In this document: piece by piece, positions 1-55,150 of the stretch
Position numbering within the stretch: the stretch's first letter is position 1
Layout of the letters: each line of letters opens with the position of its first letter
From: Phycicoccus sp. M110.8
GTDB lineage: Bacteria > Actinomycetota > Actinomycetes > Actinomycetales > Dermatophilaceae
Assembly (NCBI RefSeq): GCF_032464895.1
Contig: NZ_JAWDIC010000001.1
Location: 2,108,001-2,172,000, forward strand
DNA length: 64,000 nucleotides
Reading direction: 5' to 3'
Notes under the pieces: model-generated
What the model saw: only the letters and a program-made list of their open reading frames with translations
The model's database searches: none
What the model was told of the DNA's origin: nothing
Translations under genes and position numbers: made by a program

Positions 1-2285
1 CACTCGGCGGCCGGCCCGGCATACCCCTGCTCGGCGGCGGCGTGGAGGGTCCACTGCGGGTCGTAGAGGTGGGTGCGCCCGAGGGCGCACAGGTCGGCGC
101 GACCGGCGAGCAGGATCGAGTTGACGTCGTCGTACGAGGAGATGGCGCCGACCGCGATGACGGCGACACCAGCGGGCCGCGCGACCTCGTGGCGGATGCG
201 GTCGGCGAACGGTGTCTGGTACGACCGGCCGAACGCCGGCTTCTCGTCCTGGGTGACCTGGCCGGACGAGACGTCGATGGCCGCGGCGCCGTGCTCGATG
301 AAGGCGCGCGCGATCTCGACGGCGTCGTGCTCGGTGTTGCCGTCGGGGACCCAGTCGGTCGCCGAGATCCGCACGGTGACCGGCACCGGCTCGGGCACGA
401 CCTCGCGCACCGCGTCGAAGACCTCGAGCGGGAAGCGCAGCCTGTTCTCCAGCGACCCGCCGTACTCGTCGGTGCGCACGTTCGAGATCGGCGACAGGAA
501 GGACGACAGCAGGTAGCCGTGGGCCGCGTGCACCTCGACGAGGTCGAAGCCGGCCTCGACGCCACGTCGGGCGGCGTCCCGGAAGTCGGCGACGACCTTG
601 TCCATGTCGGCCCGGGTCATCTCGCGCGGCACGTGGGTGGCCTCGCCGTAGGGCAGCGCCGACGGGCCGACGACCTCCCAGTTGCCGTCGGGCAGCGGCT
701 CGTCCATGCCCTCCCACATGAGCTTCGTCGAGCCCTTGCGGCCGGAGTGGCCCAGCTGGAGCCCGATCTTGGCGGTGCTGCGCTCGTGCACGAACCGGGT
801 GATCCGCGCCCACGCGTCGCGCTGCTCGTCGTCCCACAGGCCGGGGCAGCCGAGGGTGATGCGGCCCTCGGGAGAGACGCAGGTCATCTCCGACATGACC
901 AGGCCGGCGCCGCCGAGGGCCTTGGAGCCCAGGTGCACGAGGTGGAACTCGCCCGGCACGCCGTCGACCGCGACGTACATGTCCATGGGGGAGAGCACGA
1001 CGCGGTTCTTCAGCTCCAGCGCGCCGATCCGCACCGGCTGGAACATCGCCGGCGCCTCCTCGTCCGGTGACGACGGGGCGGCGCTGCCGGCAGCCGCCGG
1101 CGCCGCGGCGAGGTCACCGGCGACCTGCCGTGCGTAGGCCGCCCGGATGCGGGCGGCGAACTCCGCGTCGCGCTCCTCGAGGTTGGCGTAGGTGATCCGG
1201 CGCGAGCGGGTGAGCAGGTTGAAGACGAACGAGTCGTGGTCCTGGTCGGCGGCGTACATCCCGATGTTCTCGAACCACTCCAGGCTGGCCTGGGCCGCGC
1301 GCTGGGTCGACTCCACGACCGGCTTGCGCTCCTCCTGGTATGCCGTGAGCGCCGCCTCGACGGTCGGGTGCTCGTGCAGGCAGGCGGCCAGGGCGAGGGC
1401 GTCCTCCATGGCCAGCTTGGTGCCGGAGCCGATGGAGAAGTGGGCGGTGTGGGCGGCGTCGCCGAGCAGCACGACGTTGCCGTGGTGCCAGGACTCGTTG
1501 CGGACCGTGGTGAAGCTGATCCACTTCGAGTTGTTCGTCAGGATGCGGTGGCCGTGCAGGTCGTCGGCGAAGATCTCGGCGACCCGCTGCACGGCGTACT
1601 CGTCGGAGACCCCGGGCGGGAAGACCTCGTGCTCGGTGCGGTCGAAACCCGCTGCGCGCCAGACGTCCTCGTGCATCTCGACGATGAAGGTCGAGCCCTG
1701 GTCGGAGTACGGGTACCCGTGGATCTGCATGGTCCCGAACTCGGTGTTGCGGACGATGAACTGGAACGCCTCGAAGACGAGGTCGGTGCCGAACCAGATG
1801 TACTTGTTGTGCCGGCGGTCGAGGCTGGGGCCGAAGGCGTCGGCATACCTCGTGCGCACCTGCGAGTTGAGGCCGTCGGCGGCCACGACGAGGTCGTGCG
1901 TCGCGCGCAGCTCCTCGGTGTCGGGCGCCTCGGTGCGGTAGTGGACGACCACGCCGAGCTCGGCGGCGCGGGCCTGGAGCAGCCGCAGCAGCTCCTTGCG
2001 GCTCATCGCCGCGAAGCCCTGGCCGCCGATCGTCGAGGACCGCCCGTCGACGCTGACGTCGATGTCGGTCCAGCGCGCGAACTGCCGCTCCATCGCGGCG
2101 TGGATCGTGGTGTCGGCGTTCTCGATCCCGCCGAGCGTCTCGTCGGAGAAGACGACGCCGAAGCCGAAGGTGTCGTCGGGGGCGTTGCGCTCCCAGACGG
2201 TGACCTCGTGGGCCGGGTCGAGCTGCTTCATCAGGGCGGCGAGGTAGAGCCCACCGGGCCCCCCGCCGACGACTGCGATCCTCAT
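1..2285 (-). CDS. Bifunctional aryl-CoA flavin monooxygenase / OYE-type oxidoreductase (3' end outside window)
   Basis: The protein fuses an FAD aromatic monooxygenase (about residues 1-390; start MRIAVVGGGPGGLYLA, motif GDAAHTAHFSIGSGTKLAMEDA) to an Old Yellow Enzyme/NADH:flavin oxidoreductase domain from about residue 414 (FQPVRIGALELKNRVV; catalytic-type HAAHGYLLSSFLSP). This architecture is known for salicylyl-CoA 5-hydroxylase and for 2-aminobenzoyl-CoA monooxygenase/reductase. About 761 residues are visible, so only the extreme C terminus is missing. The ATG overlaps the stop of the upstream CoA ligase (ATGA), so the two are translationally coupled. The ligase presumably supplies the CoA-thioester substrate. 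Salicylyl-CoA and anthraniloyl-CoA cannot be told apart from sequence alone. Confidence 0.88.
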   Translation of the reverse strand, partial: MRIAVVGGGPGGLYLAALMKQLDPAHEVTVWERNAPDDTFGFGVVFSDETLGGIENADTTIHAAMERQFARWTDIDVSVDGRSSTIGGQGFAAMSRKELLRLLQARAAELGVVVHYRTEAPDTEELRATHDLVVAADGLNSQVRTRYADAFGPSLDRRHNKYIWFGTDLVFEAFQFIVRNTEFGTMQIHGYPYSDQGSTFIVEMHEDVWRAAGFDRTEHEVFPPGVSDEYAVQRVAEIFADDLHGHRILTNNSKWISFTTVRNESWHHGNVVLLGDAAHTAHFSIGSGTKLAMEDALALAACLHEHPTVEAALTAYQEERKPVVESTQRAAQASLEWFENIGMYAADQDHDSFVFNLLTRSRRITYANLEERDAEFAARIRAAYARQVAGDLAAAPAAAGSAAPSSPDEEAPAMFQPVRIGALELKNRVVLSPMDMYVAVDGVPGEFHLVHLGSKALGGAGLVMSEMTCVSPEGRITLGCPGLWDDEQRDAWARITRFVHERSTAKIGLQLGHSGRKGSTKLMWEGMDEPLPDGNWEVVGPSALPYGEATHVPREMTRADMDKVVADFRDAARRGVEAGFDLVEVHAAHGYLLSSFLSPISNVRTDEYGGSLENRLRFPLEVFDAVREVVPEPVPVTVRISATDWVPDGNTEHDAVEIARAFIEHGAAAIDVSSGQVTQDEKPAFGRSYQTPFADRIRHEVARPAGVAVIAVGAISSYDDVNSILLAGRADLCALGRTHLYDPQWTLHAAAEQGYAGPAAE

Positions 2286-4015
2286 GACGTCTCCTTGCCG
2301 GCCGTGCCGGCGGTGTCGGACAGGCCGGCCGCGCCGGCGGTGTCGGCTGGGTCGGCCTGGGCGTGCTGCGCCTGCTCGCGCAGCTTGAAGTGCTGGAGCT
2401 TGCCGCTGGTGTTCCGGGGCAGCCGGTCGACGAAGCGGACCCGCCGCGGGTACTTGTACGGGGCGAGGGTGGCCTTGACGTGGTCCTGGATCTCGCGGAC
2501 CTTGGCGTCGTCGCCGACGACGCCCTCGCGCAGGACGACGAAGGCGCTGACGATCGAGCCGCGCTCGGCGTCGGGCTCGCCGACCACCCCGACCTCGACG
2601 ACGTCGGGGTGGGCGTCGATCGCCGCCTCGACCTCGGGAGCGCCGATGTTGTAGCCGGAGGAGACGATCATGCTGTCGGTGCGGGCGCGGTAGAAGAAGT
2701 AGCCGTCCTCGTCCTGCACGAAGGTGTCACCGGTGACGTTCCACCCGTCGACGACGTAGCCGAGCTGGCGCTCGTCGTCGAGGTAGCGGCAGCCCACCGG
2801 GCCGATCACCGCGAGGCGCCCCTCGGTGCCGGGCGGGACGGGACGGTCGTCGGGGCCGAGGATCGTGGCGCGGTACCCGGGGACCGGCCTGCCGGTGCTG
2901 CCCGCGCGGATGTCGTCGCCGGCCGCGGAGATGAAGATGTGCAGCATCTCGGTGGCGCCGATGCCGTCGATCACCTTGAGCCCCAGCTCGTGGTGGATCG
3001 TCTCCCACACGTCCTGGGCGATGTGCTCGCCGGCGCTGACGGCCTTGCGCAGGCCGCGCAGGCGCCCGAGGTTGCCGCTCTTGATGACCTGCTTGTATGC
3101 CGTGGGCGCGGTCGCGAGGACGGTCACCCCGTGCTCCTCGACGATCTCGGCGAGCTGGACCGGCGTGGCGGCCTCGGTGAGCAGGGCGCAGGCGCCGGCC
3201 CGCAGCGGGAAGACGACGAGCATGCCCAGCCCGAACGTGAAGGCGAACGGCGCGGTGCAGGCGACCACGTCGTCGGCCTCGAGGCGCAGGACGTGCCGGC
3301 CGAAGGTGTTGTCGATCGACAGGATGTCGCGCTGGAAGTGCGTGGTGATCTTGGGGACGCCGGTGCTGCCCGACGTCGGGCCGAAGAGGGCGACGTCGTC
3401 GGCTGCGGTGTCCACGGCCTCGAACTCGCCGGACTTCGTGGCAGCGCGGCGGGTGAGGTCGTCGGCGGAGTCGCCGGCGTAGGGGACGACGACCAGGTCG
3501 GGCGCGACGGTGTCACGCACGGCGTGGACGTCCTCGACGAAGCGGTGGTCGACGAGGGCGACCGACGGCTGTGTCTTCTCCACGATCGGCCCCAGCTCGC
3601 GGGCGCGCAGGGCGGCCATGGTCGTGACGACCACCCCGCCGGCCTTGAGCGTGCCGAGCCAGGCGGCGACGGTCCACGGCGTGTTGGGGGCGCGCAGCAG
3701 CACGCGGTTGCCCGGGACGAGCCCGAGGTCCTCGGTGAGGACGGCAGCGACCTGGTTGGTGCGGGTGAGCAGCTCGCCGTAGGTCCACACCGTGCCGTCG
3801 GGCGTGCGGAGCGCGGGGCGGTCAGGGCCGTGGGTGCGGATGGTCTCGTCGAGCAGCTCGACGGCGGCGTTGAGCCGCTCGGGGTACTGCAGGTCCGGGG
3901 TCGTGAACTCGAGCACCGGCCACTGCTCGGCCGGCGGCAGGTGGTCGCGGGCGAACGTGTCGACGTGGCCGCTCGGCGACAGGCCGGGCCGGGGACGGGT
4001 GGGGGTGGACGACAT
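2282..4015 (-). CDS. Aromatic acid-CoA ligase (benzoate/2-aminobenzoate-CoA ligase family)
   Basis: This 577-aa ANL-superfamily AMP-forming ligase has the P-loop-like motif PTSGSTGVPKITTH, GIGATEMLHIF in the A5 region, and the C-terminal hinge RTDSMIVSSGYNIGAPEVE, ending with the lysine motif RNTSGKLQ. It would activate an aromatic carboxylate to its CoA thioester. The reading frame stays open upstream, but the ATG at 4015 (MSSTPTRPRP) gives a 4-bp overlap with the thioesterase gene and a normal family length, so that start is chosen. Salicylate and anthranilate are the most likely substrates given the downstream monooxygenase/OYE fusion. Confidence 0.87.
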   Translation of the reverse strand: MSSTPTRPRPGLSPSGHVDTFARDHLPPAEQWPVLEFTTPDLQYPERLNAAVELLDETIRTHGPDRPALRTPDGTVWTYGELLTRTNQVAAVLTEDLGLVPGNRVLLRAPNTPWTVAAWLGTLKAGGVVVTTMAALRARELGPIVEKTQPSVALVDHRFVEDVHAVRDTVAPDLVVVPYAGDSADDLTRRAATKSGEFEAVDTAADDVALFGPTSGSTGVPKITTHFQRDILSIDNTFGRHVLRLEADDVVACTAPFAFTFGLGMLVVFPLRAGACALLTEAATPVQLAEIVEEHGVTVLATAPTAYKQVIKSGNLGRLRGLRKAVSAGEHIAQDVWETIHHELGLKVIDGIGATEMLHIFISAAGDDIRAGSTGRPVPGYRATILGPDDRPVPPGTEGRLAVIGPVGCRYLDDERQLGYVVDGWNVTGDTFVQDEDGYFFYRARTDSMIVSSGYNIGAPEVEAAIDAHPDVVEVGVVGEPDAERGSIVSAFVVLREGVVGDDAKVREIQDHVKATLAPYKYPRRVRFVDRLPRNTSGKLQHFKLREQAQHAQADPADTAGAAGLSDTAGTAGKETS

Positions 4016-4941
4016 CACGAGCCTCCGGAGCTGGTGCGGATCATGCCTTCCTGCACGACGGTCGCCAGGTGCTCGCCGTCGGGGGTGAAGAAGCGGCCGA
4101 GGCCCACACCACGGCCGGTGTCGGCGGCGACGGCCTCCTGCGCGTAGAGCAGCCAGCCGTCGAGGACGCCCGGACCGGGCGCGCGGTGGAACCACATGGC
4201 GTGGTCGAGGCTGGCCGTGACCAGGCCGGGCTGCGCCCACGGCACCCCGAGCACCCGCAGCACCGGCTCGAGGATCGTGTAGTCGCAGACATAGGCGAGC
4301 GCCGCGAGGTCGCGCTGCGCGTCGGTGAGCCCGTCGACCGGCCGCAGGGCGTCGAACGGCTTGACCCACACGGCCTGCTGGGGCGCGCGGCCGCCGTCGA
4401 CCTCGACGTAGACCGGGCCCGGGACGTGCCGCATGTCGAAGCTGCGCCCGCCCGCCCAGTACCCCTTGGACTCCGCGGTCATCGTCGTGCCGTCGCCCGG
4501 CACCACGTCCGCGAGGTATGCCGCGGAGCTGGGCAGCGACTCCGGTGCCGGTACGCCGGTGGGCGCGGCCGCGGCATACCGGCCTCCCTCCTCGCCGGCG
4601 GCGAAGCTGGCGAGGCAGGCGTAGGCGGGCTTGCCGTTCTGGAACGCGCGGACCTGCCTGGTCGCGTAGCCGCGTCCGTCGCGCAGTACCTCGACCTCGT
4701 AGGTGACCGGCGCCCCGATGTCGACCGGGCGCATGAAGTAGCTGTGCATCGAGTGCATGGCCTTGCCGTCGGTGACCGTGAGCATGGCCGCCGCGGCGGC
4801 CTGCGCCACCATGTCGCCGCCGTAGGCCTTCGGCCACGGGCACGGCTGGGTCGTGGCGGTGAAGGCCACGTCGAAGTGGTGCGGCTCGGTGGGGGTGAGG
4901 ACCAGCGCAGCGGCGAGGACCTCGGACGTGGGTCCGCTCAC
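4015..4941 (-). CDS. Acyl-CoA thioesterase II (TesB-type double hot-dog)
   Basis: The 308-aa protein has the two-hot-dog layout of TesB. The N-terminal half carries WPKAYGGDMVAQAAAAA and HSMHSYFMRPVDIGAP; the C-terminal half carries SLDHAMWFHRAPGPGVLDGWLLY and a D-x-x-G-R-G-V-G-L-G region. It probably releases CoA from a hydroxylated aryl-CoA, for example gentisyl-CoA to gentisate. The GTG start at 4941 overlaps the cupin stop by 4 bp (GTGA), and its own stop overlaps the ligase ATG, so the operon is tightly coupled. The longer open frame upstream (to 5058) lies inside the cupin gene and is not used. Confidence 0.85.
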   Translation of the reverse strand: MSGPTSEVLAAALVLTPTEPHHFDVAFTATTQPCPWPKAYGGDMVAQAAAAAMLTVTDGKAMHSMHSYFMRPVDIGAPVTYEVEVLRDGRGYATRQVRAFQNGKPAYACLASFAAGEEGGRYAAAAPTGVPAPESLPSSAAYLADVVPGDGTTMTAESKGYWAGGRSFDMRHVPGPVYVEVDGGRAPQQAVWVKPFDALRPVDGLTDAQRDLAALAYVCDYTILEPVLRVLGVPWAQPGLVTASLDHAMWFHRAPGPGVLDGWLLYAQEAVAADTGRGVGLGRFFTPDGEHLATVVQEGMIRTSSGGS

Positions 4942-5423: not shown

Positions 5424-5457
5424 GGGAGCTCCTTGGTCGTCAGGTGGGGCTGGGTCG

Positions 5458-6270: not shown

Positions 6271-6434
6271 ATAGCGAGATTTTCACGATCGTCGTCAAAC
6301 GTCAATAGGTCCGCTAGGCTCTCCGTCGTGCCACGGCGCCCGGCGCCGACCACCCGGGCGTTCCGTGGACCCCGACGCGCACGCGAGTGCCCCGAGGGCG
6401 CCGACCGAGGACCTGTCCGACCGCTGGAGGACCC
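6271..6434. promoter_or_regulatory. Divergent promoter region of aromatic operon and ridA
   Basis: This AT-richer stretch lies between two divergent genes. On the minus strand TTGACG (near 6300) followed by AAAATCTCGCTATAT reads as a promoter pointing into the FAH gene. The palindrome ACGATCGT is embedded in it at about 6287-6294. It is a reasonable place for the PaaX-type regulator encoded nearby to bind, but no established PaaX consensus is visible. Confidence 0.45.
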
Positions 6435-6866: not shown

Positions 6867-7704
6867 CGAAGTCGTGCGCCGGCCCGGCCAGGGCGCGGTG
6901 CAGCGCGAAGAACGTCTCCGCCGCACGGGTCCCGGACCAGTCCTCCGGGAGCAGGTCGGTCGGCAGGCCGGGGTCGAGGTAGGGTAGGCGGCGCCACGCG
7001 GTCAGCGCCCGCAGGTGGTCGGCGAACGCCTCCCCGTCGCCCGGCCGGGCGACGGGCTTCCCGGCGGCTGCCGCCTCCCACCTGCGCAGGGCGGGCTCGT
7101 GCGCCTCGAGGAAGTCGTCGTAGAGCTGCTCGAGCGCGTCGAGGTCCCACCAGTGCGCGACCTTCGTCGCCGGGTCGCCGAAGGCGAGGTACTCCGCACG
7201 GAAGAGGTCGACGTACGGCTCCAGGCCGTCCGCCAACAGCGCTTCGCGGGTGTCCTGCGCGAGGTGCCCCGGCGCGATCCACACGCCCGACGACACGGTC
7301 CCGAACCCCAGCCACGACAGCCGCGCGCGCAGGGTGTGCCGCTTCTGCCGCTCGCTCTCGGGCACCGAGAACACGGCCAGCACCCAGTCCCGCTCGGAGG
7401 CGGGCCGGGTGGCGAAGATCCGGCGGTCGCCGAGCTCGAGGACGCGGCCGGCATACCCCGACAGCGCGTAGCCCGCCACGCCGTCGCGGCGCTCGGACTC
7501 GACGATGCCGCGCCGCTTGAGGCGGGTCAGTGCCGAGCGGACGGCCTGGTCGTCGACGCCGGCTGCGGCCATGAGCCGGATCAGCGCGCTGACGCTGATC
7601 CAGCCGCCGAGGTCGCGGACGTACAGCCCGAGCAGGGTGACGATGAGGGCCCGGGGTGGCTGGGGGCCGCGGTCGGCGCCGCCGTCGAGGTCCGTCGTCG
7701 TCAC
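6832..7704 (-). CDS. PaaX-family transcriptional regulator
   Basis: The 290-aa protein has the PaaX N-terminal winged HTH (residues about 15-85; ISVSALIRLMAAAGVDDQAV, SALTRLKRRGIVESE), the central SVPESERQKRHTLRARLSWLGFG segment and the C-terminal PaaX domain (WRRLPYLDPGLPTDLLPEDW). PaaX proteins repress phenylacetate and related aryl-CoA operons and are released by an aryl-CoA ligand. Its position beside a CoA-dependent aromatic operon suggests it controls genes 1-6270, with an aryl-CoA as inducer. It is divergent from the malic enzyme gene. Confidence 0.9.
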   Translation of the reverse strand: MTTTDLDGGADRGPQPPRALIVTLLGLYVRDLGGWISVSALIRLMAAAGVDDQAVRSALTRLKRRGIVESERRDGVAGYALSGYAGRVLELGDRRIFATRPASERDWVLAVFSVPESERQKRHTLRARLSWLGFGTVSSGVWIAPGHLAQDTREALLADGLEPYVDLFRAEYLAFGDPATKVAHWWDLDALEQLYDDFLEAHEPALRRWEAAAAGKPVARPGDGEAFADHLRALTAWRRLPYLDPGLPTDLLPEDWSGTRAAETFFALHRALAGPAHDFVTAQASAARPG

Positions 7705-7808: not shown

Positions 7809-7823
7809 GAACGAGGCCGACCG

Positions 7824-9218: not shown

Positions 9219-9221
9219 CCG

Positions 9222-10478
9222 ATGACGTTCGACGCCACCGACCTCACCCGCGAGCTCGACGAGCGCCTTGTCGGCGCGGATTCCGCTCTGGCACAGGGTT
9301 TCCCGGGCGAGCGCCCCGACCGCCAGCCGGTCCACACCGTCTACGCCCCGGCCAGCCGGTACGACGCCGGCCTCGTGCCCCGGTGGGGCGAGGAGGCCCT
9401 GGCCGTCCTCGACGAGCACGGCGGGGACGCGCAGGCGTATGCCGCGCTGCTCGGCATCGCGCCCGACCTCGCCGAGGACGTGGTGGGCCGGGTGCGGGCC
9501 AAGCTCGCGGCCGAACCGGTCGAGGACCTGCGGATCGACTTCGAGGACGGCTACGGCTCGCCCGCGGACGACGTCGAGGACGCAGCGGTCGACGCGAGTG
9601 CCGCGGCCCTGCTGGAGTCGGTGCGTGGCGGGACGGCGGCGCCGTTCCACGGGATCCGGTTCAAGAGCTTCGAGGCGCCGACACGGGCGCGGGGCGTGCG
9701 GACGCTGGCGCGGTTCGTCGAGGCGGTCGCCGAGGACGGTGCGCTGCCGGACGGCTTCGTGGTCACGCTGCCCAAGGTGACGTCGGTCGAGCAGGTCGAG
9801 GCGATGGTCGTGGCCTGCGACCGGATCGAGTCGGGGCTCGGACTGCGTTCGAGGACAATAAGATTCGAGATCCAGGTCGAGACGCCGCAGGCGATCCTGG
9901 GGCCCGACGGCACCGCTCTCGTGGCGCGCATGGTCCACGCCGCGGCCGGCCGCTGCACCGGGCTGCACTACGGCACGTACGACTACTCCGCCTCTCTGGG
10001 CGTCGCGGCGGCATACCAGTCGATGGAGCACCCGGCCGCCGACCACGCCAAGGCGGTCATGCAGGTGGCGGCCGCCGGCACCGGGGTTCGGCTCTCGGAC
10101 GGCTCCACCAACATCCTGCCCATCGGCAGCCGCGAGGCCGTGCACGCGGGCTGGGCGCTGCACGCGCGGCTCGTCCGGCGCTCGCTCGAGCGTGGGTACT
10201 ACCAGGGGTGGGACCTCCACCCCGCCCAGCTGCCGAGCCGGTATGCCGCGACGTACGCCTTCTACCGCCAGGGCCTGCCGGCCGCTGCCGAGCGGCTGCG
10301 CAACTACGTCGGGCAGGTCGACTCCGGGGTGATGGACGAGCCCGCGACGGCCCGGGCACTCGCCGACTTCGTGGTGCGGGGTCTGGACTGTGGCGCCACG
10401 GACGACCCGGAGGTCAAGGAGCTGACGGGCATCGACCGGCACCGGCTGGACGTCCTGGCCAAGCGCGTCGGGGGGTAG
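9222..10478 (+). CDS. DUF6986 family, HpcH/CitE-like aldolase-lyase
   Basis: The 418-aa protein resembles the PEP/pyruvate-binding C-C lyase superfamily, with LRIDFEDGYG, the metal-ligand-like FEIQVETPQAIL and a long alpha/beta-barrel frame. Related proteins are often labelled aldolase or phosphoenolpyruvate kinase-like, without firm biochemistry. It begins 3 bp after the malic enzyme stop, so both are almost certainly one transcript. With malate synthase, glyoxylate carboligase and malic enzyme nearby, a substrate in glyoxylate/malate metabolism is a fair inference. The exact reaction is unknown. Confidence 0.8.
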   Translation: MTFDATDLTRELDERLVGADSALAQGFPGERPDRQPVHTVYAPASRYDAGLVPRWGEEALAVLDEHGGDAQAYAALLGIAPDLAEDVVGRVRAKLAAEPVEDLRIDFEDGYGSPADDVEDAAVDASAAALLESVRGGTAAPFHGIRFKSFEAPTRARGVRTLARFVEAVAEDGALPDGFVVTLPKVTSVEQVEAMVVACDRIESGLGLRSRTIRFEIQVETPQAILGPDGTALVARMVHAAAGRCTGLHYGTYDYSASLGVAAAYQSMEHPAADHAKAVMQVAAAGTGVRLSDGSTNILPIGSREAVHAGWALHARLVRRSLERGYYQGWDLHPAQLPSRYAATYAFYRQGLPAAAERLRNYVGQVDSGVMDEPATARALADFVVRGLDCGATDDPEVKELTGIDRHRLDVLAKRVGG

Positions 10479-12895: not shown

Positions 12896-13059
12896 TCAGG
12901 AACCGACCGGCGCACTCATCCCAGCGCCACGCGGCATACCGGCCCACAGGCCTCGTGTCGCGGCACACGGCCCCGCATCGAGCGGGCGCCCGGACCCGAA
13001 CCCATCCGCCCCGGCACCTGCCGCGTGGCCCGACGGAGCACCCGCGAGGAGCACCTGTC

Positions 13060-13975: not shown

Positions 13976-15433
13976 ATGCGACTGAGCAAGCGGACAACGA
14001 CGTCCGCGCCCCGCACCGGCCGCCAGCACACCGGCCGCCCCGAGGACCAGAAGTACGGTCCCGGACCCCTGCTCGCCTACGGCACCCAGCACATCCTGAC
14101 CATGTACGGCGGGGTCATCGCGCCCCCGCTCATCGTCGGCGGTGCCGCCGGCCTCAAGCCCACCGACATGGCCCTGCTCGTCACGGCCGGCCTGTTCGTC
14201 AGCGGTCTCGCGACCCTGCTGCAGACCCTCGGCCTCGGCCCGTTCGGCAGCCGCCTGCCGATCGTCCAGGGCATCTCCTTCGCCAGCGTCTCGACCATGG
14301 TGGCGATCGCGAGCGAGGGCGGCCTGCGCCCGGTCTTCGGCTCGATCATCGTCGCGGGGCTCATCGGACTGGTGGCGTCGTCGTTCTTCGCCCAGCTCGT
14401 CCGGCTCTTCCCGGCCGTCGTCACCGGCACCATCATCACGGTCATCGGGCTGTCCCTCCTGCCCGTCGCGTTCCGGTGGGCGATGGGCAACAACGACAAG
14501 GCCCCCGACTTCGGGTCGGTCGGCAACATCGGCTTCGCCGGGCTGACGCTCCTCGTCATCCTCGTGATCAGCCGGGTCTTCCAGGGGGCGGTCTCACGCC
14601 TGTCGATCCTCATCGGCCTCGTCGTGGGCACCGTCATCGCGGCCCTCACCGGACGCGCCGACTTCTCCAACGTCGGCGACGCCAAGATCGTCGCGCTGCC
14701 GCAGCTGTTCCACTTCGGCTCGCCGACGTTCCAGGCCGGCGCGATCGTGTCGATGACGATCGTCGTCTTCGTCATCATGACCGAGACCACGGCCGACATC
14801 CTCGCCATCGGCGAGATCGTCGGCACCCCGGTCGACGCCCGCCGCGTCGCCGACGGGCTGCGCGCCGACATGGCTGCCACGACCGTCGCCCCGGTGTTCG
14901 GCACCTTCCCCGCCAGCGCCTTCGCGCAGAACGTCGGCCTGGTCGCGCTCACCGGCATCAAGAGCCGGTATGCCGTGGCGGCCGGGGGCGGGGTCCTCCT
15001 CCTGCTCGGGCTGCTCCCCGTGGTGGGAGCGGTCGTCGCGGCGATTCCCTACCCGGTGCTCGGCGGTGCCGGCATCGTGCTGTTCGGCTCGGTGGCCGCC
15101 AGCGGGATCCGCACGCTGTCCCGGGTGAAGTACCACGACAACCTCAACATGGTCATCGTCTCGGTGGCCGTCGCCGTCGGCATCATCCCGATCGCGGCGC
15201 CGACCTTCTGGGACCGCTTCCCGGACTGGTTCGCGACGATCATGCACTCGGGCATCAGCGCGACCGCGGTCGTCGCCGTCCTGCTCAACGTGCTCTTCAA
15301 CGAGGTCAGGGCCGGCAACCGGCCCGGCGCCTCGGTGTTCGCCGCCGCCGAGAGCGAGAAGGACGAGCTCGGCGACACCCTCGACGACGAGCTCCGCGGG
15401 GAGAAGCGCCCCGTGCCCGGCTCGCGTCGCTGA
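13976..15433 (+). CDS. NCS2 nucleobase:cation symporter (urate/xanthine permease)
   Basis: The 485-aa membrane protein of the NCS2/NAT family has about 14 hydrophobic segments from residue 35, an early GTQHILTMYGG motif, LPIVQGISFASV, and the NAT signature region around FAQNVGLVALTGIKSRY. The E-T-T segment preceding it is typical of bacterial xanthine/urate carriers. It starts 7 bp after the uricase stop, so it most likely imports urate. The charged C-terminal tail is cytoplasmic. Substrate choice between urate and xanthine is not decidable by eye. Confidence 0.88.
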   Translation: MRLSKRTTTSAPRTGRQHTGRPEDQKYGPGPLLAYGTQHILTMYGGVIAPPLIVGGAAGLKPTDMALLVTAGLFVSGLATLLQTLGLGPFGSRLPIVQGISFASVSTMVAIASEGGLRPVFGSIIVAGLIGLVASSFFAQLVRLFPAVVTGTIITVIGLSLLPVAFRWAMGNNDKAPDFGSVGNIGFAGLTLLVILVISRVFQGAVSRLSILIGLVVGTVIAALTGRADFSNVGDAKIVALPQLFHFGSPTFQAGAIVSMTIVVFVIMTETTADILAIGEIVGTPVDARRVADGLRADMAATTVAPVFGTFPASAFAQNVGLVALTGIKSRYAVAAGGGVLLLLGLLPVVGAVVAAIPYPVLGGAGIVLFGSVAASGIRTLSRVKYHDNLNMVIVSVAVAVGIIPIAAPTFWDRFPDWFATIMHSGISATAVVAVLLNVLFNEVRAGNRPGASVFAAAESEKDELGDTLDDELRGEKRPVPGSRR

Positions 15434-17499: not shown

Positions 17500-17994
17500 G
17501 TGACCCTGACGGAGTTCAACACGCTGCCGCCGCAGGACGCGGACGCGGTGCTCACCCGGTGCCTCCCGGTGCCGCGGTGGGTGGCCGCCGTCCGTGACGG
17601 CCGCCCGTATGCCGAGTGGCCCGAGCTCGAGGCCCAGGCGGCCGAGGCCGCTGGTCACCTCGACGACGGCGAGCTCGACGACGCGCTGGCCGGGCACCCG
17701 CGGATCGGGGAGCGGGCGTCCTCGCCCGCCCACCACGCGGAGGCCAGCGCGCGCGAGCAGTCCGGGGTCGACGGGTCCGACGCCGAGGTGGCGCGGGCGC
17801 TCGCCGAGGGCAACGCGGCATACGAACGGCGCTTCGGGCGGGTGTTCATCATCCGTGCCGCGGGCCGGTCGGCCCCCGAGGTGCTGGCCGAGCTCGACCG
17901 CCGGCTCGGCAACGACGACGACACCGAGCGCGACGAGACCGTCCGACAGCTGCGCGAGATCGCGCTGCTCCGACTCCGGGAGGTGGCCTCCTGA
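17500..17994 (+). CDS. 2-oxo-4-hydroxy-4-carboxy-5-ureidoimidazoline (OHCU) decarboxylase
   Basis: The 164-aa protein decarboxylates OHCU to S-allantoin. It has the catalytic His in GHPRIG (H66) and Glu in SAREQSGV (E86), and the helical C-terminal half typical of the family. The GTG at 17500 is chosen for the GAGGAG just upstream, which overlaps the end of the permease-fusion gene. It overlaps the HIU hydrolase start (TGATG). Having this complete enzyme next to the degenerate fused copy argues that the fused domain has another role. Confidence 0.92.
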   Translation: MTLTEFNTLPPQDADAVLTRCLPVPRWVAAVRDGRPYAEWPELEAQAAEAAGHLDDGELDDALAGHPRIGERASSPAHHAEASAREQSGVDGSDAEVARALAEGNAAYERRFGRVFIIRAAGRSAPEVLAELDRRLGNDDDTERDETVRQLREIALLRLREVAS

Positions 17995-31437: not shown

Positions 31438-33893
<2,456 letters not shown>

Positions 33894-33894: not shown

Positions 33895-34706
<812 letters not shown>

Positions 34707-36014: not shown

Positions 36015-36055
36015 GCCCAGTCCCCGAGCCCCCGTCCCAGCCGGCCGGCATACGC

Positions 36056-36139: not shown

Positions 36140-37756
<1,617 letters not shown>

Positions 37757-41585: not shown

Positions 41586-42137
41586 TCAGGGAAGGCTGCG
41601 GCCGAGGAAGAGGGCGCCCGGGAAGGTGTCGTCCAGGACCTCGAACCCGAGCCGGCCGTAGAACCGCACCGCGCGTTCGTTGGCCGTCCCGACGCCGAGG
41701 TGCAGCCCGGGTGACCCGGCGGCCGCGAGCTGGGCGAAGAGCCGTTCGAGCAGCACGCGACCCCAGCCGCCGCCCTGCCAGCGCGGCAGCAGGTCGACGT
41801 GCAGGTGCGACGGGTGCTGCGCGACCACGTGGGCCGGCGCGATGGGTGGCTCGTGCAGCAGGTGCACGAGCCGGGCGTCCGCGGTCCCCTCGGGCGCCGA
41901 GCCCTCAGGGTGGGCCGACCGAAGGGTCGGCCACCACTCGCGCTCGCAGCGTGCCTCGAACGCCCGGGTGTCGAGGGTCCCCACGACGTAGCCCTCCGCC
42001 CCCGCGCCGTCGTCGAGCACGGACGCGAGCTCGGGCTCGAGCTCGAGGTAGGCACCCAGGTAGACCTCGGGCAGGAGCTGCGGCACGGCATACAGGTCGC
42101 TGGCGTCCTCGCCGTTGGCCCCGGTGCGCACGCACAC
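41586..42137 (-). CDS. GNAT-family N-acetyltransferase (5' end unclear)
   Basis: The 183-aa frame has the GNAT acetyl-CoA motif LLPRWQGGGWGRVLLERLF followed by GVGTANERAVRFYGRLGFE. A typical GNAT N terminus, VRGYTPRDRAALYDV, is encoded just upstream (42138-42180), but no in-frame ATG, GTG or TTG exists between the preceding stop (the acs TGA, same frame) and the GTG at 42137. The true start could be a CTG or another rare codon, or this genuine GNAT could be slightly damaged at its 5' end. It lies downstream of the acs terminator. Confidence 0.72.
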   Translation of the reverse strand: MCVRTGANGEDASDLYAVPQLLPEVYLGAYLELEPELASVLDDGAGAEGYVVGTLDTRAFEARCEREWWPTLRSAHPEGSAPEGTADARLVHLLHEPPIAPAHVVAQHPSHLHVDLLPRWQGGGWGRVLLERLFAQLAAAGSPGLHLGVGTANERAVRFYGRLGFEVLDDTFPGALFLGRSLP

Positions 42138-42278: not shown

Positions 42279-44225
<1,947 letters not shown>

Positions 44226-47614: not shown

Positions 47615-49136
47615 GGTCGAGGGCCAGGTCCTCGGGGGTGTGCAGCCGCACCATGGTCCGCGCCGTGTGGCGCGGGATGCGGCCCGGGGTCGCGAGGGAG
47701 ACGAGGACGCTCGTCGCGAAGGCCAGCGGGATCGTCCAGGCCGCCGGCTGCCCGAGCAGCGCCCCCGGCCAGCCGTCGATCGGCCCGGCCAGCACCGTGA
47801 TCCCGACCGCGGCGGCCGCCAGCACGCCGCCGACGACCAGCCCCGCTGCCGCTCCCACCGTCGACAGGCCGCGCCACCAGGAGCCGAGGACCAGCAGCGG
47901 GCAGAAGGTCGACGCCGCGACGGCGAACGCCAGGCTCACCATCGTCGCCAGGCCCACGGGCTCGACGACGCGCGATGCGGCATACGGCACCACCACGGCC
48001 AGCACCGCCGCGAGCCGGAAGCCCTGCACCGTCGTGGCGTCGTGCGACGTCACGCGCGCGAGCCGCGCCCGCAGGACGTCCTGGTCGAGCACGCCGGCGA
48101 CGGAGATGGTCAGGCCGCTGGCGGTCGAGAGGAACGCGGCGAACGCCCCGCCCGCCAGCACCGCCGACAGGACCTCGCCGCCAGCCCCCTCCAGCACCCG
48201 CCCCGGCAGGCTGAGCATGACGGTGTCGGGGGCGGTGCCCGCGGGCAGGCGGGGCAGGTAGACGCGGCCGAAGAGGCCGTAGAGCGGCGGGAAGAGGTAG
48301 AAGACGCCGAGCAGGGCGACGACGGTCAGCGTGGTCCGGCGGGCGGCCCGGCCGTCGGGGTTGGTGTAGAAGCGGACCAGAACGTGCGGCAGCCCCATGG
48401 TGCCGAGGGCCAGCGCCAGCAGCAGGCTGTAGGTCGCGTACACGGGGTGGCCCTGGCCGGCGAGCCCGTGCAGTGGCTGGGCCCACCCCGGGTCGGAGCG
48501 CAGGACGTCCGGGGCGGGCGTGCCGTCGCCGACCCAGACGGCCAGCAGCACGAACGCCGGGACAGCGATGGCGGTGAGCTTGATCCAGTACTGCACCGCC
48601 TGGACGAGCGTGATCGAGCGCATGCCGCCGGCGGCGACGTTGGCGACCACGACGACCGCGACGACGAGCCCGCCGAGCCAGGACGGCGCGCCCGTCACCG
48701 CCCGCAGCGCGAGCCCCGCGCCCTGGAGCTGCGGCAGCAGGTAGAGCCAGCCGATGCCCACGACGAGCAGCGAGCACAGGCGCCGGATCGCGGTGGACTC
48801 CAGCCGTGCCTCGGCGAAGTCGGCGAGGGTGTACGCCCCGGAGCGCCGCAGCGGGGCAGCGACCAGGACCAGCAGCACGACGTAGCCGACGGTGTACCCG
48901 ACCGGGAACCACAGCATGTCGAGCCCGCCGGTGTAGACGAGCCCCGCGATGCCGAGAAAGCTTGCGGCAGAGAGGTACTCGCCGCCGATGGCGCTGGCGT
49001 TGCGATAGGGCGTGACGGTGCGGCCGGCGACGTAGAAGTCGCTCGTGGTGCGCGACAGGCGCAGCCCGAAGGCGCCCACCGCGAGCGTCACCGTGCAGAC
49101 CAGGACGATGGCGACGACGCCGTATGCCGTGTTCAC
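47607..49136 (-). CDS. Second ActP-like sodium:solute symporter
   Basis: The 509-aa SSS-family protein has DFYVAGRTVTPYRNASAIGG, GEYLSAASFLGIAGLVYTGG, LALGTMGLPHVLVRFYTNPD and GLTISVAGVLDQDVLRA. It is a divergent paralogue of the 45387-47036 symporter. Because the neighbouring genes are a small membrane protein and a LytS/LytTR pair, it may be a regulated high-affinity or sensor-linked carrier for acetate, pyruvate or lactate. The 3' end carries a stop-codon duplication. Confidence 0.88.
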   Translation of the reverse strand: MNTAYGVVAIVLVCTVTLAVGAFGLRLSRTTSDFYVAGRTVTPYRNASAIGGEYLSAASFLGIAGLVYTGGLDMLWFPVGYTVGYVVLLVLVAAPLRRSGAYTLADFAEARLESTAIRRLCSLLVVGIGWLYLLPQLQGAGLALRAVTGAPSWLGGLVVAVVVVANVAAGGMRSITLVQAVQYWIKLTAIAVPAFVLLAVWVGDGTPAPDVLRSDPGWAQPLHGLAGQGHPVYATYSLLLALALGTMGLPHVLVRFYTNPDGRAARRTTLTVVALLGVFYLFPPLYGLFGRVYLPRLPAGTAPDTVMLSLPGRVLEGAGGEVLSAVLAGGAFAAFLSTASGLTISVAGVLDQDVLRARLARVTSHDATTVQGFRLAAVLAVVVPYAASRVVEPVGLATMVSLAFAVAASTFCPLLVLGSWWRGLSTVGAAAGLVVGGVLAAAAVGITVLAGPIDGWPGALLGQPAAWTIPLAFATSVLVSLATPGRIPRHTARTMVRLHTPEDLALDRG

Positions 49137-49200
49137 GCCTCGTCCCTGCCGCCGCCCCGCGCCGGGTGCCCCGCAGCGCCGGGAGCCGTGGTCGCGCGCG

Positions 49201-50399: not shown

Positions 50400-50408
50400 G
50401 GGCGAAGC

Positions 50409-51611
50409 CTACGTGGTGGCGTGGACGCCGGGCGCGTACTTGGGCACCCGGAAGGTGACCTTGGTGCCCGCGCCCGGGGCGGTCTCGACGACGAGGCCGA
50501 AGTCGTCGCCGTAGACCTGGCGCAGCCGGGCGTCGACGTTGCCGAGCCCGATGCTGTCGGCGTCGGCGTGGCCGTCGAGCGCAGCCCGGACGACGACCGG
50601 GTCGGAGCCGACGCCGTCGTCCTCGACCGTGATGGTCGCCGCGGCTCCGTCGTCCGTGGCGACGATCCGCACCTGGCCGCCGCCCTCCTTGCCGGCGAGG
50701 CCGTGGCGCACGGCGTTCTCGACCAGTGGCTGGATCGCGAGGTAGGGCACGGTGACCGGCAGCACCTCGGGGGCCACCAGCAGCGAGATCCGCAGCCGGT
50801 CGCCGAACCGCGCCTGCTCGAGGGTGAGGTACCGCTCGACGTTCCGCAGCTCCTCGGCGAGGGTGGTGAACGCGCCGCCGCGCCGCAGCGCGTACCGGGT
50901 GAAGTCCGCGAACTCCAGCAGCAGCTCGCGCGCCCGGGCCGGGTCGGTCCGGACGAACGTCGCGATCGCCGCGAGGGCGTTGTAGATGAAGTGCGGGCTG
51001 ATCTGGGCGCGCAGGGCGCGCAGCTCGGCCTCCATGGCCCGGCTGCGCTGGTGGCCGAGCTCGGCGAGCTCGGCCTGGGTCGCCATCCAGCCCGCCACCT
51101 CCTCGGTCGCCCGGGCGAGCCCCGCCGACGCCTGCGGCCCGTATGCCGTGATGGCCGCCACCACGCGGTCGCCGGTGACGACTGGGGCCACGACAGCGGT
51201 GCGCACCGGGCAGTCGGGGTCCGGGCACTGCACCCGGTCCGGGCCCAGGACGATGGTGCGGCCCGAGCGCAGGACCTCGGCCGCGTGCTGCGGGGCCGCG
51301 GCGGTGTGCTGGTCGGGGAGTCCGTCGGCCGCCACGAGCCCCGTGCCGTCGCACACGGCGACCGCCGGTGCGCCGAGCAGGCTGCGAAGGTGGCGGGCCG
51401 CCTTGGCGGTGCCCTCGGGAGTGAGCCCGTCCTGCAGGTGCCGGGCGGCGAGGGAGGCGGTGTGCAGCGTGCGGTAGGTGGCCTGGTCCACGTCGGAGAC
51501 GAACCCGCGGCGGGCGCTGCGGCCCTGGTGGACCAGCCGCACCAGCGCGTAGAGGAGCGCCATCGCGCCCGCGACGACGATGGCGGTGGGGACGGAGAAG
51601 CTGCCCGACAC
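50409..51611 (-). CDS. LytS-type sensor histidine kinase
   Basis: The 400-aa kinase has one N-terminal membrane segment (PTAIVVAGAMALLYALVRLV), a GAF-like sensor (LGAPAVAVCDGTGLVAADGL; a CPDPDCP motif could bind metal), then a His_kinase domain with the H-box ISPHFIYNALAAIATFVR and ATPase N-box PLVENAVRHGLAG. With the LytTR regulator it resembles pyruvate/acetate-sensing systems next to transporters. GTG at 51611 is chosen; upstream reading continues only as GC-rich antisense. Confidence 0.9.
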   Translation of the reverse strand: MSGSFSVPTAIVVAGAMALLYALVRLVHQGRSARRGFVSDVDQATYRTLHTASLAARHLQDGLTPEGTAKAARHLRSLLGAPAVAVCDGTGLVAADGLPDQHTAAAPQHAAEVLRSGRTIVLGPDRVQCPDPDCPVRTAVVAPVVTGDRVVAAITAYGPQASAGLARATEEVAGWMATQAELAELGHQRSRAMEAELRALRAQISPHFIYNALAAIATFVRTDPARARELLLEFADFTRYALRRGGAFTTLAEELRNVERYLTLEQARFGDRLRISLLVAPEVLPVTVPYLAIQPLVENAVRHGLAGKEGGGQVRIVATDDGAAATITVEDDGVGSDPVVVRAALDGHADADSIGLGNVDARLRQVYGDDFGLVVETAPGAGTKVTFRVPKYAPGVHATT

Positions 51612-51768
51612 AGGGGAACTGTAGGGCGCAGGGCATCCCGGTGGGTGTCGTCCGGTGGCGCACAGGGGTGGTCGCCGGTGAACGGCCGCCGTCACGCGCG
51701 CGTGGGCGCCGCTGTCCGCGGGGTGGCTGCCTGCGCTCGGTGGCAGCCGCCTCTCTAGGCTGCTGGAC

Positions 51769-52611
51769 GTGGTCGACGTCGCCTCCTCCCTCACCGCCCT
51801 GGGCGAGCTGCCCGGCATACCCGAGAAGGTCGCGGCCGCGCGGCAGGCGTGCGAGCAGCTGCGTTGGCACGAGGCGCTGCGCCGACGGATCCCTGAAGCG
51901 GCGGCGGAGTCGCGGGTGCGCGGTGCCCAGGCGAGCGCCGCCCTCGAGGGGGCGACCGTGCCGCTCGACCTGGTCCGCGACGTGGTGCGCGGAGCGGCGC
52001 AGTGGCCCCTCGAGCCGGACCCCGTCGAGCAGGTGGCCCGGAGCGCGGTCCAGGCGACCGCCGAGAGCGAGCACGTGCGGGCGCTCGTCTCGTCGGCGCC
52101 CCTGCAGGCCCTGGCGCGGCTGCACGTCGCCGCGGCCGCCGGCCTCGTGGCCGCCGACCAGCTCGGTCGCCCGCGCACGGGGGACGAGGTCAGCGCGGAG
52201 TTCACCGACCTCGGGCCCGCCCCGGACGCCGCGTCGCTGGCGGCGCGGCTCGAGTCCCTGACCGCGGTCCTCACCGTCGACGCGGCCGTGCCCGCCCTCG
52301 TCGTCGCGGCCGTCGCCCACGCGGAGGTGGTCACGGCGCGGCCGTTCGTGCGTGGTAACGGCGTGGTCGCCCGGGCGCTGGCCCGCGCGGTCGTCCAGGC
52401 CCGTGGGCTCGACCCCACGGGAGTCGCGGTCGTGGAGGCGGGCCACGCCGCCCAGGGCGGGCCGGCGTACCTCGGTGCGCTCGCGGCATACGCCACCGGC
52501 TCCGGCGCAGGAGTGGGGCTGTGGATCGAGCACAGCGCCGACGCGCTCGTCGCGGCGGCCGGTGCCGGGGTCGAGGTCTGCGACGCCGTCCGCGCCGGCC
52601 GGCTGACCTGA
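51769..52611 (+). CDS. Degenerate Fic-like protein
   Basis: The 280-aa protein resembles actinobacterial Fic-fold proteins found next to Tad loci. The inhibitory-helix-like region RGAQASAALEGATVPLD is retained. The Fic core reads ARPFVRGNGVVARAL where active enzymes have H-P-F-x-x-G-N-G-R-x-x-R, so the catalytic His and the first Arg are lost while F and GNG remain. AMPylation activity is therefore unlikely; a binding or structural role is possible. GTG is the start. Confidence 0.72.
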   Translation: MVDVASSLTALGELPGIPEKVAAARQACEQLRWHEALRRRIPEAAAESRVRGAQASAALEGATVPLDLVRDVVRGAAQWPLEPDPVEQVARSAVQATAESEHVRALVSSAPLQALARLHVAAAAGLVAADQLGRPRTGDEVSAEFTDLGPAPDAASLAARLESLTAVLTVDAAVPALVVAAVAHAEVVTARPFVRGNGVVARALARAVVQARGLDPTGVAVVEAGHAAQGGPAYLGALAAYATGSGAGVGLWIEHSADALVAAAGAGVEVCDAVRAGRLT

Positions 52612-53420: not shown

Positions 53421-54266
53421 ATGGACCACCACGTGATCGGTGTCGTGGGCGCCTCCGGAGGCCTGGGGGCGTCGACGCTGGCCGTCGCCCTCGCCGTCCG
53501 CGCTGGCCCCCTCGTCGGCGTCAGCGCCTGTGTCGACGGGCGACCCCGCGCCGGTGGTGTCGACGTCACCGCCTGCGTGGAGCACCTGCCCGGGCTGCGT
53601 TGGGGCGACCTCGCCGACCTGCGCGGCCGGGTCGACGGTGCCGCACTGCTGCGGGCCCTGCCCGGCGAGGGGTCCCTGCGCGTGCTGGCCGCGCGGGGCG
53701 ACCCGCCGGGCTCCGTCACCGTGCGTGCAGCGGTCGAGGGGCTGGCGACGGTGGCCGGCCTCGTGGTCCTCGACACCGGCGCCGATCCGGAGCTGCTGGA
53801 CCTGTGCACCGCGGTGGTGGTGCTCGCGGGCGTGAGTGCCCGGCGGCTGGCGGACGCGGGCGCGCTGGTCCAGCGGGGTGTGCTGCCGGGTGACGCGCTG
53901 CTCGTCCTGCGCGGCGCCCGCCGGGAGCCGGTCGCCCCTGAGGACGTGGCCGTGCACCTGGACCTGCCGCTCGCCGGGGTCCTGCGGGACGACCCGCGGG
54001 TTCGTGCCGACGAGGACCGGGCCCGGCTGCCGGGCTCCCGGGCGCGCGGTGCCGTCGAGTCGGTGGCCGACCGGTTGCTGGCGCTCGCGGGGGTGGCGAG
54101 GGCGCAGCGGGCGGCCGTCGCGACCACGACCACCGTCGCGACCACCGTCGGGCCCGGTGGCCCGCTGACGTCGCCGTCCACGCCGTCCACGCCGTCCTCG
54201 GCCTCCTCGGCGTCCTCGGGACCGGGCGCCGAGCCGGCTGCCGTGAGCCGCGGGGGTGGGCTGTGA
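53421..54266 (+). CDS. Ssd/CpaE-like MinD-family protein of the Tad locus
   Basis: The 281-aa protein has an atypical Walker A, VGASGGLGASTLAVALA, lacking the signature lysines of MinD, as in the septum-site determining (Ssd, CpaE-like) proteins that precede Tad pilus ATPases in Actinobacteria. GLVVLDTGADPEL fits the Walker B position. It would position the pilus machine. The ATG at 53421 is chosen; the frame upstream is non-coding. GTGA overlap couples it to cpaF. Confidence 0.85.
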   Translation: MDHHVIGVVGASGGLGASTLAVALAVRAGPLVGVSACVDGRPRAGGVDVTACVEHLPGLRWGDLADLRGRVDGAALLRALPGEGSLRVLAARGDPPGSVTVRAAVEGLATVAGLVVLDTGADPELLDLCTAVVVLAGVSARRLADAGALVQRGVLPGDALLVLRGARREPVAPEDVAVHLDLPLAGVLRDDPRVRADEDRARLPGSRARGAVESVADRLLALAGVARAQRAAVATTTTVATTVGPGGPLTSPSTPSTPSSASSASSGPGAEPAAVSRGGGL

Positions 54267-55150
54267 CCCGGTCTCCCGCCGAGCGCGGCGGGCTCGGGTC
54301 GGCCGCACCCGGGCAGCGCCGGGCGATCGCCGACCAGATCCGACAGGGCCTCGCCCCGGACGAGCACCTCGTGGGGGCGGTGGCCGCCGTGGACACCGCG
54401 ACACTCGGGGCCGCCGGCGTCCGAGCCGCCCGCGAACGGCTGGCGGCGGAGGTGCTGGGGGCAGGCCCGCTCGAGCCGATGCTGGTCGACCCCGACGTCA
54501 CCGACGTGCTCGTCAACGGTGACGGCTCGGTCTGGGTCGACCGCGGGGACGGTCTCGCGCGGGCCGACGTGCGCCTCGAGGACCCCGGTGCGGCCCGCCG
54601 CCTGGCCGTCCGGCTCGCCGGGCTGGCCGGACGGCGGCTCGACGAGAGCCAGCCCTGGGTGGACGGGCTGCTGCCCGGCAGCGTCCGCCTCCACGCGATC
54701 CTCCCGCCGCTCGTCGAGGGTGGCGCCCACGTGAGCCTGCGGGTTCCGCGGGCCCGCGCCGACGGGCTCCGCGCCCTGCGTGCCTCGGGCATGTTCGGGT
54801 CCGAGACGGAGGAGCTGCTGCGGCGCCTGGTGCTCGCCCGGTGCTCGTTCGTCGTGACGGGTGGGACGGGGTGCGGCAAGACGACCCTGCTCGCCGCCCT
54901 GCTGGCGGAGGTCCCCCACGCGGAGCGGCTCGTCCTCGTCGAGGACGTGCGCGAGCTCCAGGTGGGCCACCCCCACGTCGTGCGGCTGCAGGGCCGTGGC
55001 GCCAACGTCGAGGGCCGCGGGGCCGTCGGGCTCGTCGACCTGGTGCGACAGGCGCTGCGCATGCGGCCCGACCGGCTCGTGGTGGGGGAGGTGCGTGGCG
55101 CGGAGGTCCGCGAGATGCTCGCCGCGCTCAACACCGGGCACGAGGGCGGC
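54263..55150 (+). pseudogene. Tad/Flp pilus ATPase CpaF/TadA, 3'-truncated by insertion
   Basis: The 296 retained codons include the N-terminal domain and the core ATPase: Walker A TGGTGCGKTTLLAAL, the Asp box VLVEDVRELQVGHPHV, Walker B-type RPDRLVVGEVRGAEV. The normal text continues ALNTGHEGGCGTVHANSA; here it breaks after ALNTGHEGG, exactly where an IS-like terminus begins. At least 90 residues (the C-terminal ATPase part) are lost, and tadB/tadC do not follow. The pilus would not be assembled unless another copy exists. Confidence 0.82.

Follow-up and report, generated by a model that had tools for sequence, protein, structure and literature searches.

An over-represented, strand-balanced 8-mer of Phycicoccus sp. 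M110.8 as a probable DNA uptake sequence, with putative dialects in related Actinomycetota

Sequence-specific DNA uptake was attributed in a 2016 review to two families, the Pasteurellaceae and the Neisseriaceae (PMC5031613). The receptor of the DNA uptake sequence (DUS) of Neisseriaceae is the minor pilin ComP, the distance between neighbouring DUS of the meningococcus is about 1,500 nt (PMC2397512), and closely spaced inverted DUS pairs act as terminators in Neisseria (PMC3630211, PMC2397512). Transformation of the actinobacterium Micrococcus luteus depends on tad genes (PMC4322843). Here we describe the 8-mer GTATGCCG, over-represented in a 64-kb stretch of the genome of Phycicoccus sp. M110.8 (hereafter the window; C1:2,108,001-2,172,000 of a 7-contig, 4,117,279-base assembly), which is probably the DUS of a naturally transformable actinobacterium, with putative dialects in related lineages, working like the DUS of Neisseria. 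No uptake-type motif of Actinomycetota appeared in the titles and abstract openings matched in a literature search that covered few subscription journals or preprints, and the bare letters of the motif returned primers and unrelated text among the matches listed. In the following, handles with C, L, G, g and f denote contigs, loci, genomes, genera and families.

The window contains 36 exact copies of GTATGCCG/CGGCATAC, 19 on the + and 17 on the - strand, the first at position 17 and the last ending at 52,491; 100 dinucleotide shuffles had 1.12 on average and never more than 4. CGGCATAC is also the top 8-mer by z (27.1) against a third-order Markov model, with 36 copies vs 1.6 expected. The original prediction had counted 38 copies of the shorter GGCATAC/GTATGCC, 36 of them extending to the 8-mer, had expected about two copies of the latter from base composition, and had described near-even use of the strands and copies both within and between genes. 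Counting by program returned the same 38 and 36, and called genes contain 34 of the 36 copies, the two intergenic ones lying at 12932 and 36046 (predicted at about 12931 and 36046). Over the whole genome there are 1,234 + 1,242 = 2,476 copies, about one per 1.66 kb, compared with 74 + 61 = 135 copies of a control, GTATGCCG read backwards, and the word is about 20 times commoner across the genome than expected. The check by Markov model that had been proposed with the prediction left the excess standing: a 435-kb sample of this genome, comprising the window to 55.1 kb and 19 further stretches, holds 264 copies vs 13.1 (the island locus L013 was left out of this sample for the Markov and spacing analyses and out of the synonymous shuffles). 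Beyond the 8-mer, the flanks of 74 non-coding sites, taken after removal of duplicate flanks, show a weak [CT]G.G extension only. Contamination with an Illumina adapter, within which CGGCATAC lies, was rejected, as the genomic copies have diverse flanks.

DNA uptake is the best account of the word because of its apparent dialects, its inverted stem-loop pairs, its even spacing, its near-absence from a mobile island and the presence of competence genes. Among the functions that the original prediction had offered, uptake comes out as the best supported, as a predicted role, while a nucleoid role is retained as a rival and nothing found points to methylation. A surface receptor, which might sit on a Flp/Tad competence pilus or be linked to ComEA, would prefer free DNA carrying GTATGCCG; the pilus and ComEA/ComEC would import the tagged DNA, recombination would swap the homologous stretch, with word-bearing alleles being donated more often, and the word would spread and persist through molecular drive and/or selection for self-DNA. 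We infer uptake as the cause and the other words described below as dialects of one system, with a putative receptor and a predicted uptake bias.

Gaps between copies in the 435-kb sample have a mean of 1,589 bp (coefficient of variation 0.86), which agrees with the predicted density of about one copy per 1.5 kb, and short gaps are deficient, those below 200 bp accounting for 16 of 244 vs 28.9 expected. This genome has 23 inverted pairs (word-N3-20-reverse complement), and each of the other ten genomes of the genus has 7 to 90, which is 3-18 times the chance expectation of 0.4-16.6 derived from word frequency, with an excess in 11 of 11 genomes; many of the pairs listed are perfect stem-loops, for example GTATGCCGCGTGGTCACCACGCGGCATAC. 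Regarding conservation, 28 window genes (24-55 kb) were compared with their orthologues in nine congeners, using pairs of at least 50% identity. Of 135 comparisons, 70 (52%) retained GTATGCCG at the matching codon position, compared with 14,900 of 62,438 (24%) for control 8-mers taken in the commonest motif frame only and 33 of 152 for control Tyr-Ala 8-mers. Where the tyrosine was kept, TAT codons inside GTATGCCG were retained in 56 of 65 cases and those elsewhere in 1 of 23. The congener G007, whose identity to this genome reaches 90% over parts of the region, has kept 4 sites and lost 11. The fairly even genome-wide spacing, the lack of strand polarity and the conservation at orthologous sites would also suit a binding site of a chromosome-organising (nucleoid) or other abundant, co-evolving DNA-binding protein, the drift of which could be reflected in base shifts between genera. 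Such a role appears unlikely, as genes, too, harbour thousands of exact 8-mers despite the rare codons that these impose, and the surplus of stem-loop pairs is not obviously needed by such a protein but is habitual in uptake sequences.

Sites of the Chi type usually favour the leading strand, and the FtsK orienting polar sequences (KOPS) and FtsK recognition sequences (FRS) show strong strand polarity. In contrast to such signals, copies of GTATGCCG over 20 stretches of C1 and C2 are split 129/135 between the strands (heterogeneity chi2 6.7 for 20), and their strand has a correlation of r = -0.20 with GC skew, the test being one of local balance and GC skew on these stretches. Balanced strands without a link to GC skew therefore argue against Chi- and KOPS-like signals, and strand-polar signals were ruled out on this balance; the original argument from strand balance against FtsK-type polar sequences is extended by the counts genome-wide and over the 20 stretches. 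Thus, a Chi-like recombination hotspot for an enzyme of the RecBCD/AddAB/AdnAB type, which a non-palindromic 8-base word, dense over the chromosome, would otherwise resemble, is improbable, and inverted stem-loop pairs are not known as a feature of Chi.

Slightly less probable again is that mutation, repair or methylation generates the word or shields it from loss, a process for which the highly iterated palindrome HIP1 of cyanobacteria is the comparison case. The word is found in coding and non-coding DNA alike and has lineage-specific variants, both consistent with such a process; however, a one-mismatch halo would be expected, yet 18 of the 24 single-base neighbours are at or below 1.43 times expectation, and TAT is retained within the motif and lost outside it. 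HIP1 is a palindromic word, and GTATGCCG differs from its reverse complement.

The contribution of codon use was assessed in 399 genes of the 435-kb sample, called by a home-made open reading frame (ORF) caller and not taken from an annotation. Coding copies number 212 in 388.7 kb (0.55 per kb), with 6 more at gene edges, and non-coding copies number 46 in 46.4 kb (0.99 per kb) vs 2.7 expected, the DNA called non-coding being 10.7% of the sample but holding 46 of the 264 sites. Codons falling inside GTATGCCG include 120 of 159 TAT, 19 of 32 ATA and 68 of 868 GCA, and most TAT in the sampled genes is thus due to the word, not to tyrosine codon choice. The idea that the excess is an artefact of composition, codon or dipeptide usage, the last of which is suggested by the 188 of 212 coding copies that encode Tyr-Ala (120) or x-Ala-Tyr (68), is practically untenable, because synonymous-codon shuffling with proteins fixed (50 runs) gave 7.2 +/- 2.6 copies, at most 12, vs 212 real ones and because non-coding density exceeds coding density; an excess explained entirely by dipeptide and codon bias, which the original prediction had named as its refutation, did not materialise.

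Within the genus, GTATGCCG is enriched in 11 of 11 genomes, including this one, with 625 to 3,986 copies. In the family, Dermatophilaceae in GTDB, many genera have the word, and hand counts gave at least 300 copies in 85 of 149 genomes (a sample without G004 and G009) and fewer in 64; the motif-poor genomes are mostly within a few-fold of their own control word, and g20 has a mild excess (293 vs 130 control). In the order, none of the 273 genomes outside the family (297 genomes scanned) had more than 177 copies by hand count. Codon-controlled ranking of 8-mers in 31 family sample sets placed GTATGCCG at the top in 5, and other words exceeded expectation in 9. GGATGCCG stands out in g27 (60 vs 10.5) and g17 (42 vs 7.7), CGAAGGGG in g37 (37 vs 5.9) and g38 (40 vs 5.2), GTATGCGG in g21 (22 vs 2.4), CGATGCGG in Kytococcus (G066; 61 vs 12.3), and GTACGCCG in g24, g40 and one g48 genome (39 to 50 vs 9 to 12), the related GGCGTACG scoring slightly above GTACGCCG in g40. 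The specificity of related genera would have moved by one to three bases, the distance of GGATGCCG, GTACGCCG, GTATGCGG and CGATGCGG from GTATGCCG, or by five in the case of CGAAGGGG. In a TadA tree of 21 sequences, three groups of sister genera share a word (g27 + g17, support 1.000; g37 + g38, 0.979; g24 + g40 + g48, 0.917). Inverted pairs of the other words, in small samples, numbered 4 in 6 sets, with 3 sets having none.

Outside the family, GGATGCCG exceeds 300 copies per Mb in 20 of 22 genomes of family f19 vs 1 of 272 others, in a hand count that uses rounded genome sizes, and reaches 57 vs 13 under codon control in the f19 genome G186. In Microbacterium sp. UFMG61 it has 1,491 + 1,507 (2,998) copies vs 93 + 95 (188) for the control, and f19 is presumably the Microbacteriaceae because Microbacterium shares its word; back within the family, G011 (g2) has 1,336 copies vs 310 control (382 per Mb). 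In Propioniciclava tarda, GGATGCCG is at baseline, and CCGGACGC and GGACGCCG are in excess under codon control in one 21-kb locus, L149 (44 vs 7 and 45 vs 10); at 4-6 times expectation, these may be an uptake-like word in another lineage. The screens behind these results covered, for mixed loci, those of at least 12 kb (80 of 99), in a further screen, other-family loci above 10 kb (15 of 19) and named loci of at least 15 kb (49 of 80), and, in the comparison with Microbacterium and Propioniciclava, 14 of 15 loci (all but L142). Additional words were seen in single genomes: GGAGCCGG is second in the codon-controlled list of G016 (z 6.6), GTACGGCG is enriched in G078 (L057-L058) and GTAGACCG/GGTCTACG in G130 (L069-L070, L112), the latter two genomes being motif-poor members of motif-rich genera in which these words are possibly recent switches.

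Regarding the machinery, ComEC and ComEA genes lie on contig C2, and this genome also has a Tad locus with pilin genes; in the motif-rich congener G009 the ComEC match is split into two pieces (C1:1517076-1517881). The window runs into the Tad locus, where the tadA gene is interrupted. The best TadA match in each of 8 congeners shares 75-80% identity with the 5' part of this gene, and the ORF in front of that part is presumably the TadZ-like gene of the Flp/Tad pilus locus; the remaining part is followed by a T2SSF gene, a second pilus-assembly gene, a DUF4244 gene, a TadE-like gene and a further small gene. A Fic/DOC-family protein (PF02661) is encoded at 51769-52611 of the window, and a homologue lies near the tad locus in 13 other loci.

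Tn7-like transposons carry TnsA, TnsB, TnsC/TniB and TniQ genes, have inverted ends with internal repeats and generate a 5-bp duplication. The island that interrupts tadA, read as window 55146-64000, L013, L093 and L094 1-9006, has similar, inverted ends (TGTC...GGCCCAAC.TGACACTT) with TGACACT repeats at both. At its far end TniB and TniQ are clear and a TnsA-like match is below the cut-off (21.7 vs 26.5 bits), and a 796-aa protein without a Pfam match stands in the TnsB position. As the interruption is accompanied by a 5-bp target duplication, it is unlikely to be an assembly error. The island has a GC content of 0.686 and, as a single island, 4 copies of GTATGCCG vs about 36 expected at the mean gap. 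There are no copies in 55,151-64,000 of the window, as the original prediction had noted for its right-hand 9 kb, and this is because of the 57.9-kb Tn7-like island, not a property of the motif, the boundary at 55,150 being exact and the transposon-like element beginning at 55,151. Within the island, at L093 8518-18662, very large ORFs of 924 and 2,037 aa precede a short Hint-like fragment and look to us like large modular secreted proteins. In G001 (L258, about 2,400-2,500, reversed strand) tadA is interrupted elsewhere by inserted sequence with a different end, and the tadA pilus gene has thus been struck repeatedly, by separate insertions in this genome and in G001. In G006 (L257, 2,381-2,900) the tadA frame appears shifted near LLPGG, which could be a sequencing error; tadA is broken in 3 of 9 genus genomes with the locus read, including this one. 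The features are collected in Table 1.

Table 1. Copies of GTATGCCG in the window, with the residues they encode and the congeners that keep the site, followed by features of the tadA locus and the island
Feature	Position	Strand	Encoded residues or description	Site kept in congeners
Copy 1	17..24	-	GYAG	
Copy 2	1338..1345	+	TAY	
Copy 3	1841..1848	-	RYAD	
Copy 4	3095..3102	+	TAY	
Copy 5	4516..4523	+	AAY	
Copy 6	4572..4579	-	RYAA	
Copy 7	7449..7456	-	GYAG	
Copy 8	9437..9444	+	AYAA	
Copy 9	10009..10016	-	AAY	
Copy 10	10241..10248	+	RYAA	
Copy 11	12932..12939	-	intergenic	
Copy 12	14968..14975	+	RYAV	
Copy 13	17607..17614	+	PYAE	
Copy 14	17816..17823	-	AAY	
Copy 15	19265..19272	+	GYAG	
Copy 16	22380..22387	+	GMP	
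Copy 17	23184..23191	-	TAY	
Copy 18	24902..24909	+	AYAD	6/9
Copy 19	25523..25530	+	AYAG	3/9
Copy 20	26982..26989	+	RMP	1/6
Copy 21	29384..29391	+	TYAV	5/6
Copy 22	31355..31362	-	AAY	6/9
Copy 23	32228..32235	+	GYAA	8/9
Copy 24	34605..34612	-	IGIP	0/9
Copy 25	35276..35283	+	RYAV	9/9
Copy 26	36046..36053	-	intergenic	
Copy 27	36292..36299	-	EYAG	6/9
Copy 28	42086..42093	-	LYAV	1/1
Copy 29	43386..43393	+	AAY	2/8
Copy 30	43910..43917	-	TYAD	5/8
Copy 31	44007..44014	+	AAY	3/8
Copy 32	47978..47985	-	PYAA	4/7
Copy 33	49122..49129	+	TAY	1/7
Copy 34	51141..51148	+	TAY	3/7
Copy 35	51813..51820	-	PGIP	1/7
Copy 36 (last in window)	52484..52491	-	AAY	6/7
ORF before tadA	53421..54266	+	before tadA, as in congeners (e.g. 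L096 3289-4029); no Pfam match	
tadA/cpaF (T2SSE ATPase), 5' part	54263..55150	+	PF00437, 1.5e-41; broken off at 55,150	
Remaining tadA part	L094 9016-9477 = C1:2221016-2221477		beyond island	
Target-site duplication GCGGC, 5 bp	55146..55150		repeated at island far end, L094 9002-9006	
Tn7-like island, left 8.85 kb	55151..64000		whole = C1:2163151-2221001, 57,851 bp	

Several observations weigh against an uptake sequence with dialects. Six of the 24 single-base neighbours of GTATGCCG in the 435-kb sample are themselves at 1.5-3 times expectation. A clear word is absent in 17 of the 31 family sample sets, ten genera being wholly without one at 40 to 58 kb per set (g2, g3, g10, g11, g14, g15, g20, g41, g45 and g49), and genomes of one genus disagree, with a word in G066 and none in G018 (g9), and a word in G057 and none in G089 (g48). 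In G057, GTACGCCG lacks a clear non-coding excess (1 vs 0.5). Both GTACGCCG and GGATGCCG consist of preferred codons and have a sizeable codon-driven baseline, codon usage being a partial contributor to these two words. The TadA tree does not unite the carriers of GTATGCCG in a single clade. High z values are also reached in the 80 mixed loci by certain 8-mers that have no relation to the word and are for the most part local repeats, so that a single 20-kb sample is weak evidence. ComEC was found in 145 of 149 family genomes and a TadA match, in some cases possibly to a paralogue, in 147 of 149, motif-poor ones included, and ComEC is likewise present in 22 of 22 f19 genomes, including the low-count G215. 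The genomes with broken tadA keep their copies (2,476 in this strain, 1,192 in G001 and 1,468 in G006), and G007, with an uninterrupted tadA frame, has the fewest in the genus.

Presence of ComEC or TadA thus failed as a predictor of the motif, being equal in motif-poor genomes, and, as the machine is also found there, the difference would lie in receptor specificity or in the regulation of competence. Similarly, motif number and tadA integrity have no clean relation across the genus; about 2,500 copies alongside a broken tadA are compatible with a recent insertion and just as well with a function that has nothing to do with the pilus.

Regarding the wider distribution, there is in our view an even chance that many Actinomycetota tag their own DNA for transformation with an 8-base word recognised by a Flp/Tad-associated receptor, that this word has diverged into dialects between genera and in two or more families, and that the system arose independently of those of the Neisseriaceae and Pasteurellaceae. 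This spread would take in GTATGCCG in the family of Kytococcus, GGATGCCG in Microbacterium and f19, and possibly GGACGCCG/CCGGACGC in Propioniciclava. If GTATGCCG is an uptake sequence, it would extend to Gram-positive hosts, and to another type of pilus, a phenomenon so far described in two Gram-negative families, and would add an example of the evolution of self-recognition in bacterial sex. It would then be predictable which environmental actinobacteria can be transformed and which tag each requires, a lever for hard-to-transform genera, and the many natural word shifts would allow the receptor to be sought through comparison of the pilins and ComEA proteins of sister genera. The word would also have reshaped codon use until most sampled TAT codons fell inside it.

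Among known systems, Chi, KOPS/FRS and HIP1 are likewise over-represented words of octamer scale, from which GTATGCCG differs in having no strand polarity, in being non-palindromic and in its stem-loop pairing and variant words. Micrococcus luteus, with Flp/Tad-dependent transformation, is similarly an actinobacterium with ComEA/ComEC and a Tad locus (PMC4322843), although the term 'uptake sequence' is absent from the main text of that paper. The uptake signal sequence of Pasteurellaceae is also short and very abundant, has dialects and has a minor pilin as its proposed receptor (PMC12616744), but it is unrelated in sequence, and the extension past the 8-mer described here is only weak. The letters ATGCCG that GTATGCCG has in common with the 12-mer DUS ATGCCGTCTGAA (PMC5031613) are probably a coincidence. 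We describe GTATGCCG as working like a DUS, and claim no membership, because the evidence is at the level of sequence, the words follow clades only in part and any link to the competence machinery is tentative. It differs from the Neisseriaceae DUS in having an 8-mer core and not a 10-12-mer, in high-GC Gram-positive hosts, in a putative Flp/Tad in place of a type IVa pilus and in an uptake role that is predicted. It resembles that DUS in occurring in hundreds to thousands of copies at a spacing of about 1.5 kb, in inverted stem-loop pairs, in dialects of a few bases that follow clades, here putative and in a partly clean pattern, and in its scarcity in the one island read, DUS being absent from recent acquisitions (PMC3630211, PMC2397512).

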